This document shows positions 2,819 to 27,745 of a stretch of 29,680 bases of DNA, piece by piece. Numbering within the stretch: the stretch's first letter is position 1; each line of letters opens with the position of its first letter. The notes beneath the pieces are model-generated. The model saw nothing but the letters and a program-made list of their open reading frames with translations. It did no database searches and was not told the DNA's origin. A program made the translations under genes and the position numbers. Origin of the DNA: a virus; IMG/VR virus record IMGVR_UViG_3300047551_002878, positions 1 through 29,680 of that record; one strand, written 5' to 3'.

Positions 2819-2847
2819 ATTCTAAGGTATCTAGGGGAGTTTGTCAA
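2819..2847 (-). promoter_or_regulatory. Sigma70-type promoter for the left operon
   Basis: On the minus strand TTGACA (2842-2847) and TAGAAT (2819-2824) are separated by exactly 17 bases, a near-consensus bacterial promoter. It would be read by host polymerase early in infection. The -35 box contains the TGA stop codon of the upstream HiPIP-like gene. Confidence 0.8.
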
Positions 2848-3047
2848 TCCCTGTTTTTTCTGTCATACTGATGCCACTTACACCATCCATCAGCAGCAAT
2901 CTTTCCTTTTACTGCGGTGCAGGCATTGGGTGGTCTCCACATATTACAATTGGAGCACTTCTCATTTCCTTTCGGGTCATTTTGATATCCTGCTGTTGCC
3001 TTAGAAGACTTTTCTTCTTCTGCTATAAACTCTTGATAGGATTTCAT
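2844..3047 (-). CDS. HiPIP-like small iron-sulfur protein (67 aa)
   Basis: Four cysteines lie at residues 31, 34, 43 and 56 in the pattern C-x2-C-x8-C-x12-C, embedded in YQNDPKG...CSNC...W..P..C..VKGKI...GWCKWH. The order, the GK-I spacing and the final GWC-x-W/aromatic motif match high-potential iron-sulfur proteins, which hold one 4Fe-4S cluster and carry electrons. The N-terminal 15 residues are charged, with no signal peptide, unlike periplasmic HiPIPs. It lies directly behind the HNH gene with a 3-base gap. A zinc-binding role is the main alternative. Recognition is by motif only. Confidence 0.6.
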   Translation of the reverse strand: MKSYQEFIAEEEKSSKATAGYQNDPKGNEKCSNCNMWRPPNACTAVKGKIAADGWCKWHQYDRKNRD

Positions 3048-3050
3048 TGG

Positions 3051-3524
3051 TTAAGTTGTCTCTTGTAACATTTTTCTATAACAATCTCTGGCAATAATTG
3101 CTTCATCTATCGTATCATAAGTGCCAACATAGTAGTTAATCTTTTTATGCCACATATTGACTTGATATTTACCAGATGGGACTTTTCTTATATTTCTCAA
3201 CTCACCATTGGGACATCTGCGATTTATATTTTGTGTAGAGTTGTCTGCCCATCTTATATTGCCAGGAATATATCCAGAGTTGTTGTTTATTCTATCAATA
3301 GAATATCCTTCTGGCCTTTCACCCAAATTTTCATCAATATATTTTAGAAACTTTATAAAACCTGGCGGAGTTTGTGTGGTGCCGTGAAACCCTCTTTCAG
3401 ACCACTCTTCAAAAATTTCTATCCCACGAGCACCATACTCTGAATAGTTTATATTTTTTGGATCTTTACATCTGCGTATCATACCATTCCAAGTATGATA
3501 TAGGGGGTGTTGTGATACTTTCAT
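3051..3524 (-). CDS. HNH homing-type endonuclease with AP2 domain (157 aa)
   Basis: The N-terminus HPLYHTWNGMIRRCKDPKN is the typical entry of phage HNH/AP2 nucleases; the HNH core is at about residues 68-105 (YSIDRINNNSGYIPGNIRWA followed by ADNSTQN), and residues about 116-150 (GKYQVNMW...YYVGTYDTIDEAI) look like an AP2 DNA-binding domain. Such genes are mobile, free-standing endonucleases. It sits in a non-coding pocket between unrelated small genes, has its own late promoter (3549-3556) and is bracketed upstream by a 12-bp inverted repeat. No Shine-Dalgarno is obvious at the ATG. Confidence 0.85.
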   Translation of the reverse strand: MKVSQHPLYHTWNGMIRRCKDPKNINYSEYGARGIEIFEEWSERGFHGTTQTPPGFIKFLKYIDENLGERPEGYSIDRINNNSGYIPGNIRWADNSTQNINRRCPNGELRNIRKVPSGKYQVNMWHKKINYYVGTYDTIDEAIIARDCYRKMLQETT

Positions 3525-3526
3525 TG

Positions 3527-3602
3527 TAAGTCTTGGCGTGACTGATACTATTTATAATAACATATGTGTGGGTCTTACGCAACATAATTCCGCCAAGACT
3601 TA
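3527..3602. repeat. 12-bp perfect inverted repeat around the HNH promoter
   Basis: TAAGTCTTGGCG at 3527-3538 and CGCCAAGACTTA at 3591-3602 are perfect inverse copies with 52 bases between them. The late promoter motif of the HNH gene lies inside the loop. The repeat may form a stem in RNA or mark the nuclease's target or insertion boundary. Confidence 0.7.
3549..3556 (-). promoter_or_regulatory. T4-type late promoter (TATAAATA) for the HNH gene
   Basis: The minus strand reads TATAAATA, the full T4 late consensus recognised by gp55-type sigma. It lies 25 bases before the HNH start codon, a suitable distance for a short leader. Confidence 0.65.
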
Positions 3603-3618: not shown

Positions 3619-3942
3619 TCAATCACGAGTGCGCCAATCAGTGTCATCTTCATCCCTCTTAAACCAATCGTGTAAGTCATCAGGAGAATCAAAACCACGA
3701 CGACCAAATCTTTCGTGACCTAAACCACCCAAATCCATCCTATTCATAAAGTCGTCTAAGTCACCTTCTACCATATCAGGATTTTCTGCTCTTCTTCTTG
3801 CCTGACGAAGGATTGTGGCAGCAGATCGATTTGCTTTGGCAAGTTTTTCACACCAAATCATCTCACTTAATTCAACTGACTCACCTTTTACAATCTTATC
3901 ACAAATTTCTTCAAGACGAATTCTGTAGTTGTGACTTAGCAT
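3619..3942 (-). CDS. Hypothetical protein (107 aa), charged, Arg/Asp-rich C-terminus
   Basis: The N-terminal half is helical (MLSHNYRIRLEEICDKIVKG ... LAKANRSAATILRQARRRAE) and the C-terminal half is a low-complexity acidic/glycine region (MDLGGLGHERFGRRGFDSPD) ending RDEDDTDWRTRD. It resembles a protein widely kept in cyanomyovirus genomes but never assigned. A late promoter motif (3964-3971) precedes it. The end of the gene abuts the HNH promoter region. Confidence 0.7.
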   Translation of the reverse strand: MLSHNYRIRLEEICDKIVKGESVELSEMIWCEKLAKANRSAATILRQARRRAENPDMVEGDLDDFMNRMDLGGLGHERFGRRGFDSPDDLHDWFKRDEDDTDWRTRD

Positions 3943-3962: not shown

Positions 3963-4196
3963 TTATTTATTTTCGTATTCGTCCATCAACTCTTTTGCGA
4001 GTTTCATAGACCGACGCCACATCAGATACTTCACAATCGGATTCGCAGGATTGTGAAGCACCCACCACTTTACTTTCTCATATTCCACTCTAGCAAGTTG
4101 TGTCAGCATATAAAATGCCCGTGCTACTGATTGGTCGGTGACAATCAAATAACCAATACAGAAGAATATAACAAAGTAAATATATGTGCTACTCAT
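3963..4196 (-). CDS. Single-pass membrane protein (77 aa)
   Basis: Residues about 5-21 (YIYFVIFFCIGYLIV) form a hydrophobic N-terminal segment, followed by a basic, aromatic cytoplasmic-type tail (WWVLHNPANPIVKYLMWRR ... LMDEYENK). The start overlaps the stop of the preceding small gene by ATGA. Topology suggests an inner-membrane anchor with a charged soluble part. Its stop codon is embedded in a late promoter motif for the next gene. Function unknown. Confidence 0.7.
   Translation of the reverse strand: MSSTYIYFVIFFCIGYLIVTDQSVARAFYMLTQLARVEYEKVKWWVLHNPANPIVKYLMWRRSMKLAKELMDEYENK
3964..3971 (-). promoter_or_regulatory. Late promoter motif (AATAAATA)
   Basis: AATAAATA on the minus strand, 22 bases before the start at 3942, matches the NATAAATA form of the cyanophage late motif. 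It shares bases with the TAA stop of the upstream gene (3963-3965). Confidence 0.5.
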
Positions 4197-18514: not shown

Positions 18515-20560
18515 TTATGTTGGGCAATCTATTGATGTTTGAATACCTTTTCTATCTCTAATTATTTTCTGTGCTTCTGATGGTTGAGATATTGGACCAA
18601 GAATTGGTTTCAAGATAGCACCAAATCCAGTTTCAGAGTCAACCGTAATTACAGGAATATCAGAAACCTCCAAAATATTTAGAGGTGTTGCTGAAAGTAT
18701 TCTACCATTATCAACTATCAAACTATAAGTATTTCCAAGATTATCGGTTGCAGTATCATTTCTAGAGTATTCCAATCCAGCAGTTTGTACTACAACATCA
18801 GTGACACCATAAGCATCTTGATTTTGTATTAGTGGATACCCTTCACCGGAAGATGTGATATAAATTGAAGTTACCTTTCCAGCATCATTGATTACTGCTC
18901 TACCTTTTGCTCCATAACCTAATCCACAACTATCACTAAACTCAACGAATGGTGGGAAACGATATCCTGAACCAGGATTTGTAACAACTGCACCAATAAT
19001 ACTTGCAGTCTGTGTTACATTATTAACTACATTTAGAATTGGAGTCGCAGCACCAAGAATAGGAATCGCTGATGCTCCTGTTCCTCCTCCACCAAAGATG
19101 TTGATTGTAGGAGATCCGCAAGTAGTTGGGAATGTTGGAATACATTCTCCTAAACCATTCAGAGCATCCTGTAAAATATCGTTTGAGAATACATCTGCAA
19201 TTCCTGCAACACCTTCAACTGCAGAAGTTACATCTCCAACAACACCTCCGATAGTATTTGCAATATCAAAGATACTATTGAATGATTCTAAAGGATCTAT
19301 ACTACTCTTTGGACCAACTCCAACTATCCATTCTTTAGTTCCATCACACTTGTTATTGCTTTGATTACAGTCAAAGAGTCCTCCCAATCCAAGAATTGTA
19401 TCTACTGTGCTTTGAATAAAATCAACAACACTGAAAACACCACCCAACAAGGCAGAAACACCATCTAGAGCGGCAGACAGTCCATCAGCAATTGCATCTG
19501 TAATTGTATTAACAAGAGATCCGATGAATTGCTCTGCCACACAAGTTACAAATCTATCTACATTTTCAAGAAGTGACTCAAGTAATTGAACTATGATTCC
19601 TAAAAGCCCTTCAACAATTGCATTTGCAACACAAGAAAGTGCTTCTTCTAAAATTTTAATTGGAATTACGAAGACCTCATTGGACTTATATCCTGCCGTG
19701 TGTGCTGCTGCTGGATTGCCTGTTGCAGCAAGAACTGACCCATAAACGCTAATATACAGTGCTTTTAATGCTTTTGGAATAATTCCTGGGTCATCTTCAG
19801 TTCCAACTAGGAAATTATAAATCGAATCCATAATTCTACCAACTATCCAGTTGACGGCACCCTTAATTACTTCAGCGGTGTTTTGAATTGCTTGCTTATA
19901 CTCAGCAATTTTTCCTTGCGCTTCTTGGATATATTTAAGTAAATTATTAACCTCAGATTTTACTGTTTTAATTGTTGTATCTTCACAAGTGTCGGCAAAT
20001 ACAACTTCTCTTCCAATACCAGTATAAGCAGATATCTCTCTCAGTCTTGCTGCTACTTCTGGAGGAACTGCTCTTGGACTTTTTTGAGACTCTTCTGTTG
20101 CTTCATTTGATTCATCAGTCTCTATTCTACCAGTTCCTTGTGGACTTTTTACTCTAGAAGTATGACCAGTAAAAGGAATGAAAGGATTTTTATATCCAGC
20201 AGTTGACCAATCACTCGTGTGTCCAAGTGCTCCCATAATGACTGGGATTTGTGCGTTATCACCATCCAAGAAAAATCCAATGACCATATCTCCAGGTCTT
20301 ATTTTTGGATTTACTGCATACTTTGCTGCACCACTTCCAGCAGTAGTTGGGAACATAACCTGTGCCCAAGGAAGATCATCATTTGATAATTCGGCAATAT
20401 CTAAAGGATGATATCCTAAGATTCTAACTTTATACCTATATCCCCATCCACCACCATTTGCTTGCTCTTCCCACGCTTCTACTGGTGCAATTTGCCCCAA
20501 CCACCAACGGAAACCATCTCTACCTATAAAATGACTTTTAAGAAGTGATTCGTCTATCAT
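18515..20560 (-). CDS. gp5: gp5-like baseplate hub protein, OB-fold, no lysozyme domain (681 aa)
   Basis: Residues about 1-120 (FRWWLGQIAPVEAW ... YRYKVRILGYHP ... DLPWAQVMFPTTAGSG ... GDMVIGFFLDGDNAQIPVIM) match the OB-fold domain of T4 gp5 and VgrG, which forms the trimeric hub. T4 gp5 follows this with a lysozyme domain; here the next part is a Lys/Glu linker, helices (YIQEAQGKIAEYKQAIQNTA), a long stretch of hydrophobic repeats (LLESLLENVDRF, GVVGDVTSAVEGVAG) and a C-terminal beta domain with GY.P...V, GGGG and GSGYRFPP motifs. No lysozyme catalytic pattern is seen. Membrane or needle interaction is probable. Confidence 0.8.
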   Translation of the reverse strand: MIDESLLKSHFIGRDGFRWWLGQIAPVEAWEEQANGGGWGYRYKVRILGYHPLDIAELSNDDLPWAQVMFPTTAGSGAAKYAVNPKIRPGDMVIGFFLDGDNAQIPVIMGALGHTSDWSTAGYKNPFIPFTGHTSRVKSPQGTGRIETDESNEATEESQKSPRAVPPEVAARLREISAYTGIGREVVFADTCEDTTIKTVKSEVNNLLKYIQEAQGKIAEYKQAIQNTAEVIKGAVNWIVGRIMDSIYNFLVGTEDDPGIIPKALKALYISVYGSVLAATGNPAAAHTAGYKSNEVFVIPIKILEEALSCVANAIVEGLLGIIVQLLESLLENVDRFVTCVAEQFIGSLVNTITDAIADGLSAALDGVSALLGGVFSVVDFIQSTVDTILGLGGLFDCNQSNNKCDGTKEWIVGVGPKSSIDPLESFNSIFDIANTIGGVVGDVTSAVEGVAGIADVFSNDILQDALNGLGECIPTFPTTCGSPTINIFGGGGTGASAIPILGAATPILNVVNNVTQTASIIGAVVTNPGSGYRFPPFVEFSDSCGLGYGAKGRAVINDAGKVTSIYITSSGEGYPLIQNQDAYGVTDVVVQTAGLEYSRNDTATDNLGNTYSLIVDNGRILSATPLNILEVSDIPVITVDSETGFGAILKPILGPISQPSEAQKIIRDRKGIQTSIDCPT

Positions 20561-27307: not shown

Positions 27308-27745
27308 ATGTCATATAAGGGAAAATATCAACCATCTCATCCAGAAAAGTATAATGGAAATCCAACAAATATCATATACAGGTCTTTGTGGGAGCGCAAG
27401 TTCATGGTTTACTGTGATACGAATGAAAAAATAATTGAATGGTCATCAGAGGAAAAATGTATTCCATATAAGTCTCCAATAGACAATCGCATACACCGTT
27501 ATTTTCCGGACTTTCTTATCAAAGTGAAAGAGTCTAATGGTAGTATCAAAAAATATATGATAGAAATTAAACCATCAAAGCAAACTATCCCTCCCCCTAA
27601 ACCAAAAAGACAAACTCAGAAGTATATTGCTGAGGTCTATGAGTATGCTAAAAATCAATCAAAGTGGGAAGCAGCAAGAGAATGGTGTGCTGATAGAGGT
27701 TATGAGTTTAAGATAATCACCGAACACGAACTGCAAATTAAGTAA
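27308..27745 (+). CDS. gp4: Head completion protein, gp4-like (145 aa)
   Basis: The sequence MSYKGKYQPSHPEKYNGNPT followed by NIIYRSLWERKFMVYCDTNE and IIEWSSEE...YKSPIDN is the signature of the T4 gp4 (gp50/65) head completion family. Then RYFPDFLIKV and YMIEIKPSKQ supply the D-x(n)-E-x-K pattern of a TnsA/endonuclease-like fold. The T4 protein (150 aa) finishes the DNA-filled head so that tails attach. First gene of the plus-strand block; its TAA overlaps the next ATG. Confidence 0.9.
   Translation: MSYKGKYQPSHPEKYNGNPTNIIYRSLWERKFMVYCDTNEKIIEWSSEEKCIPYKSPIDNRIHRYFPDFLIKVKESNGSIKKYMIEIKPSKQTIPPPKPKRQTQKYIAEVYEYAKNQSKWEAAREWCADRGYEFKIITEHELQIK

Follow-up and report, generated by a model that had tools for sequence, protein, structure and literature searches.

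Introduction

High-potential iron-sulfur proteins (HiPIPs) have been described chiefly from purple bacteria, as electron carriers that undergo export; like plastocyanin and cytochrome c6, they act in the lumen or periplasm. PioC and similar HiPIPs leave the cytoplasm as holoproteins through the twin-arginine translocation (Tat) system and function in the periplasm (PMC7462912). An iron-sulfur cluster has also been described in a virion, where the tail-tip protein gpL of phage lambda has a [4Fe-4S] cluster of unknown role (PMC10721106). In phage T4, the first ten residues of the internal protein IPIII suffice for packaging into the head (PMC9026906). Of the T4 internal proteins, IPI inhibits a host restriction enzyme, and infection of one Escherichia coli strain requires IPIII (PMC3012670, PMC9391042). 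Here, we analyze a stretch of viral DNA of 29,680 nucleotides (positions 1 to 29,680 of IMG/VR record IMGVR_UViG_3300047551_002878; the window hereafter) in which a small minus-strand gene at 2844-3047 encodes a HiPIP-like protein that begins with a T4-type capsid targeting sequence (CTS). On the evidence of its sequence and of analogy with T4, we propose, with a probability of roughly two in three, that this PioC-like [4Fe-4S] protein is packaged in the head by its CTS and probably ejected with the DNA into the next cyanobacterium.

Results

The gene has a predicted product of 67 residues, MKSYQEFIAEEEKSSKATAGYQNDPKGNEKCSNCNMWRPPNACTAVKGKIAADGWCKWHQYDRKNRD, which by sequence and by structural model is a PioC-like member of the HiPIP family and fold. 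A sequence-only reading of the window had pointed to a HiPIP-like protein on the strength of a C-x2-C-x8-C-x12-C spacing and the peptides YQ..PKG, VKGKI and GWCKW, all of which we recovered in the open reading frame (ORF), and had suggested a family HMM and structure prediction as checks. With the Pfam HIPIP model (PF01355), the protein scored 23.0 bits, one bit above the curated cut-off of 22; a divergent viral homologue (L409) scored 26.5 bits and the homologue in Synechococcus phage S-SRM01 22.6 bits. The closest solved protein by sequence was PioC of Rhodopseudomonas palustris TIE-1 (PDB 6xyv; E 2.2e-11, 42% identity), which has the identical Cys spacing, the GWC motif and a Tyr located ten positions ahead of Cys 1. 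When the search was made with a profile built from the wider family, PioC was matched at 1.5e-21 and the other HiPIPs came up with weaker scores. HiPIPs carry a Trp immediately before the fourth Cys and an aromatic residue two or three positions after it (PMC7462912); Trp55 and Trp58 occupy these positions in the phage protein.

Relatives of the gene were present in at least 85 stretches of IMG/VR, and we analyzed 51 distinct coding sequences. The Cys order C-x2-C ... C ... GWC, as in HiPIPs, was kept in all 51, and the four Cys, Tyr21, Gly54, Trp55 and Trp58 were invariant. Over the whole gene dN/dS was about 0.048; the value fell to 0.026 for the core that binds the cluster (residues 31-66) and was 0.054 for residues 2-13 at the N-terminus. 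The phage gene is thus held by strong purifying selection, and taken with the Pfam score and the match to PioC this argues that the likeness to HiPIPs is not due to chance. PioC holds a [4Fe-4S] cluster, and from the sequence we infer that the phage protein binds one as well. Searches with conserved peptides of the cyanophage family found no match in bacterial genomes, and a second Cys/Val pattern found none in viral contigs.

The structural models gave a similar picture. An AlphaFold2 model built from a cyanophage-only alignment was poor (mean predicted local distance difference test score, pLDDT, of 63.9) and was superseded by one from a wide alignment of 52 sequences to which bacterial and other phage relatives had been added. 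The latter was confident, with a mean pLDDT of 86.8 that depends in part on homology to the bacterial HiPIPs in the alignment. A Foldseek search of the PDB with this model returned six matches, HiPIPs throughout, with PioC at the top (root-mean-square deviation, rmsd, of 1.3 over 45 aligned columns; E 1.6e-3). In VIA-align, PioC had a Z score of 7.4 and an rmsd of 2.1 over 54 residues, and all 13 entries listed were HiPIPs or contained one. The Foldseek E-values are modest, as one would expect of a protein this small; no other fold competes.

The phage protein differs from PioC in how it starts. Where PioC is exported by Tat to the periplasm, the phage ORF begins with MKSYQEFIAEE, and we found no in-frame upstream extension carrying a twin-arginine signal, in agreement with the sequence-only reading that a signal peptide is missing. 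For comparison, a DNA pattern of the Cys spacing matched 41 stretches in bacterial genomes, 36 of them genuine as judged by eye, and 31 of these 36 had a twin-arginine-like stretch upstream. These matches came mostly from Alphaproteobacteria and Eremiobacterota; no cyanobacterium was among them, with the limit that the pattern was strict and other spacings would escape it. Since it has no Tat signal, the phage HiPIP is not expected in the lumen or periplasm, and judged from its sequence it is a member of the HiPIP family that stands outside the exported, Tat-dependent class. A photosynthetic donor role like that of PioC was considered as the principal interpretation and rejected on account of the missing export signal.

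In place of the export signal, the protein has a capsid tag, which the sequence-only reading had overlooked: by sequence, residues 1-10 match a T4-type CTS almost exactly. The annotated internal virion proteins IPII and IPIII of T4 start MKTYQEFIAE/A (here and below, the slash marks the position after the Glu), and the window protein starts MKSYQEFIAE/E. Mutagenesis of the T4 CTS has tied residues 4 and 7 to targeting and residues 8 and 10 to processing by gp21 at [LI]-x-E (PMC9026906). In the 51 phage HiPIPs, position 4 was F, Y or L, position 7 F or Y, position 8 L or I, and position 10 always E. The FIAE or FLSE form of the tag resembles the maturation junction of the major capsid precursor gp23 of S-SRM01, SFLSE/ASPTNS, where cleavage is expected from T4, except that residue 11 of the HiPIP is Glu. 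The corresponding junction in the closest long relative of the window (G003) reads SFLYE/ASPTNS. Like the phage HiPIP, IPII and IPIII are small and net positive; past the tag nothing is similar, and the HiPIP cargo is a predicted iron-sulfur protein. Among strict matches in T4, the only one besides IPII and IPIII was gp61.1 (L522, T4 19101-19130; annotated hypothetical), which starts MKTFKEFIKE.

We then looked at how widely the tag occurs. A short-peptide tblastn search of named phages matched S-SRM01 only, and the tag was then sought as a DNA pattern. With Ala required at residue 11, the scan returned at least 120 stretches, on unrelated proteins that by eye included ADP-ribosyltransferase-like, HAD-like, kinase-like and nucleotidyltransferase-like sequences. 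Glu at residue 11 was found in many other tagged proteins; among the matches listed in the Glu-11 scan was the divergent HiPIP L409, caught by the tag alone and confirmed by Pfam. One tagged ORF passes directly into gp23-junction sequence (MKTFGDFLGE/AAPTNSVGNGG). Eleven records, S-SRM01 and ten viral contigs, each had the tag pattern on a single strand, and the reversed pattern gave no matches. The form MK[S/T][F/Y]x[D/E][F/Y][I/L]xE was seen on phage proteins of many different, unrelated kinds (L241-L361, L397-L516), and G003 had two further tagged proteins. In S-SRM01 itself, the HiPIP was the sole match to our first strict motif among plausible genes. A relaxed motif picked out four tagged ORFs versus two in a reversed-peptide control (1856 ATG-initiated ORFs), which makes the relaxed motif weak evidence when taken alone.

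One tagged protein has been measured in virions. Mass spectrometry of virions revealed the NMNAT of phage S-SCSM1 (QFG06348.1; PMC9602691), which is annotated accordingly. It starts MKSFLQFLKE/A, and its S-SRM01 homologue starts MKNFHQFITE/A. The strict DNA pattern had no match in S-SCSM1, although its NMNAT has the relaxed form of the tag, and the NMNAT-like virion protein of S-SZBM1 departs from the exact form (MRFRQFIIE/A). NMNAT-like proteins recur in cyanophage virion proteomes, with a warning from the authors about contamination (PMC10665884). These NMNAT/cytidylyltransferase proteins share the tag class and the phage family with the HiPIP, but are an unrelated enzyme with Ala at residue 11.

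HiPIP-like modules also occur in head proteins of unrelated phages. Outside the present family, we found them in a portal protein (L171), in a head-morphogenesis protein beside a portal gene (L172), in a head maturation protease (L159), and, as a HiPIP motif, in the capsid maturation protease of phage DSL-LC01. A fold search of viral models (BFVD) had XkdF and a prohead protease among its matches. These domains have the same Cys spacing or the HiPIP fold, no signal peptide and a link to heads; they differ from the window protein in that they are either built into larger head proteins or encoded by short ORFs lacking its tag, and their phages are not related to the window. The association of HiPIP-like modules with heads is independent of the tag. 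Lambda gpL is another virion protein that carries a [4Fe-4S] cluster, but has a different Cys pattern and belongs to the tail. We did not count DSL-LC01 P0002, annotated "high potential iron-sulfur protein", because its Cys spacing differs; this Cys-rich gene (L219:1038-1772) lies beside capsid genes. A phage contig of 260 kb has a small HiPIP starting MRNFINILNE/T, which is tag-like but less certain. It is one of two adjacent ORFs with tag-like starts (L166:1390-1867), the other beginning TYLNIINE/A.

The window aligned best to S-SRM01 (Kyanoviridae), with 78% identity over 37% of a 20-kb query, which bears out the earlier suggestion of a phage with a photosynthetic host. The nearest isolate homologue, an S-SRM01 protein 91% identical to the window HiPIP, is "hypothetical" in GenBank; UniProt (via BFVD) names the same protein by a HiPIP profile. 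The gene is one of several small genes that follow each other on the minus strand, and the term operon used in the sequence-only reading is a fair one. A phrog_507-type gene was directly upstream in 73 of 82 loci and separated from the HiPIP gene by an HNH gene in 5 more, the window included, so that one or the other was the upstream neighbor in 78. The HNH gene, inserted in the lineage of the window, has its own upstream TATAAATA. In a contig without a HiPIP (G008), another tagged ORF follows what appears to be the same upstream gene, which suggests an exchangeable cargo slot behind the phrog_507 gene. This different ORF (L381, G008:218964) contains Cys.

The motif ATAAATA, the T4-type late element, occurred 91 times in the forward and 7 times in the reverse orientation in S-SRM01, where one copy lies 27 nucleotides ahead of the phrog_507-HiPIP transcription unit. 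Many of the loci had a copy upstream, and others had none within 1.2 kb. Judged from these sequences, late expression of the HiPIP gene is likely. Elsewhere in the window, an ORF with a TnsA-like endonuclease domain (27308-27745; Pfam 4.4e-25) lies in the structural-gene region, and S-SRM01 has a gene annotated as a flavin-dependent halogenase among its tail-fiber genes (L001:14389-15846). Coordinates are collected in Table 1.

Table 1 Features of the HiPIP locus in the window and of a related module in phage DSL-LC01.
Feature	Position	Strand	Basis
HiPIP-like gene, 67 amino acids	2844..3047 (stop codon included)	minus	ORF translation, Pfam, PioC match, model
CTS, residues 1-10, MKSYQEFIAE; predicted prohead-protease site after Glu10	3018..3047	minus	9 of 10 residues identical to T4 IPII/IPIII
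Tyr21	2985..2987	minus	invariant in phage and bacterial relatives
Cys31, predicted cluster ligand 1	2955..2957	minus	invariant
Cys34, predicted cluster ligand 2	2946..2948	minus	invariant
Cys43, predicted cluster ligand 3	2919..2921	minus	invariant
Cys56, predicted cluster ligand 4, inside GWC; Trp55 at -1, Trp58 at +2	2880..2882	minus	invariant
HNH endonuclease gene, between phrog_507 gene and HiPIP gene	3051..3524	minus	PHROG HNH endonuclease, 8e-36
Late-promoter-like TATAAATA, upstream of HNH-HiPIP	3549..3556	minus	motif
phrog_507-type gene, usual upstream neighbor of the HiPIP gene	3619..3942	minus	PHROG match
Late-promoter-like ATAAATA, upstream of phrog_507 gene	3964..3970	minus	motif
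DSL-LC01 HiPIP-like module	L219:3598-6150		

Discussion

The presence of a CTS makes the inside of the virion, and then the host cytoplasm at infection, the likeliest place and time for the HiPIP to act. In the sequence of events that we propose, the protein would probably be made late and would acquire its [4Fe-4S] cluster in the cytoplasm of the infected host. The CTS, of the form MK[S/T][F/Y]xEF[I/L]xE, would draw it into the prohead core, as T4 genetics and the virion-detected tagged protein suggest, and a gp21-type prohead protease would probably cut after Glu10, less certainly so with a Glu at position 11. The HiPIP would then share the mature head with the phage DNA and, by analogy, would be ejected when the phage infects its next cyanobacterium, and so would reach the new host ahead of all phage gene expression there. 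At about 50 residues the core is compact, and its net charge, leaving the cluster aside, is positive; it could therefore travel through the tail in folded form and rest against DNA. Speculatively, its likeliest function in the new host would be one-electron redox work, in which it accepts electrons or oxidising equivalents near the incoming DNA. Candidate roles, at the level of a guess, are an oxidant or electron buffer, an anti-defense factor and a DNA-bound internal protein; given what IPI and IPIII do for T4, anti-defense is as open as a redox role.

The sequence-only reading was right about the family, the missing signal peptide and the photosynthetic host; without the CTS in view, it had placed the protein as a cytoplasmic carrier that taps or buffers electron flow, or else as a structural cluster protein. 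Tapping or buffering of host electron flow is a possible activity of the phage HiPIP. As a late carrier or buffer in the infected cyanobacterium, with an N-terminus that is merely a helix, the protein would make sense of the HiPIP fold and the missing signal peptide, and S-SRM01 does carry psbA, hli, ferredoxin and other photosynthesis genes (PMC8557907). We nonetheless consider such a carrier distinctly unlikely: nine of the ten N-terminal residues are those of the T4 CTS and the residues the tag requires are under selection, the S-SRM01 HiPIP gene is not adjacent to the photosynthesis genes, and the known partners of HiPIPs are periplasmic. The structural alternative gains weight from unrelated phages, whose portal, head-morphogenesis and maturation-protease proteins bear fused HiPIP-like modules, and the cluster of lambda gpL at the tail tip (PMC10721106) speaks for it too. 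Here the cluster would fold a small domain in the capsid or prohead core and so serve head assembly or stability, with no need for redox chemistry or ejection. That this is its whole purpose seems to us rather unlikely, in that the window protein is free and tagged like IPII and IPIII instead of fused, its apparent replacement in G008 by a different tagged protein suits exchangeable cargo better, and residues special to high-potential clusters are invariant. Four Cys alone cannot separate zinc from an iron-sulfur cluster, and a further alternative is a non-redox protein with zinc or another metal on these residues. Yet the single CxxC, the x8 and x12 spacings, the Trp before and the aromatic residue after the last Cys and the invariant Tyr are HiPIP traits (PMC7462912), and with a [4Fe-4S] protein as its nearest relative we regard a zinc site as highly improbable.

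Several observations weigh against packaging and ejection of the HiPIP. The residue after the predicted cleavage site is always Glu, versus Ala in IPII and IPIII, which makes cleavage uncertain, and the match to PHROG internal head proteins is weak alone (E 0.047; 3 of 27 members). The tag is also found on many ORFs whose location in virions is only putative, and contaminants can accompany CsCl-purified virions, a point made in the proteome work itself (PMC10665884). ATAAATA is missing from the 1.2 kb upstream of the HiPIP gene in many loci and also stands ahead of non-virion genes. We found no virion proteome of S-SRM01 or of a relative bearing the HiPIP gene, and no result points to an electron partner.

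We found nothing in the open-access literature on a cyanophage HiPIP, nor on a phage HiPIP associated with a capsid. HiPIPs and T4 targeting sequences are each known; as far as we found, their union is undescribed. Tentatively, we would extend the proposal of a packaged and ejected HiPIP to freshwater T4-like cyanophages at large, which might inject a folded, cluster-bearing HiPIP as an early redox agent, with HiPIP modules being a recurrent and unrecognised head component. If the proposal is true, this would be the first redox iron-sulfur cargo, as far as we found, to be brought by a phage at infection, and it would enter a host that depends on photosynthetic electron flow for its metabolism. 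It makes testable the purpose of virion iron-sulfur clusters, open since lambda gpL. Finally, the tag, common to many unrelated proteins of which one has been measured in virions, offers a sequence handle for listing the likely injected proteins of T4-like phages.
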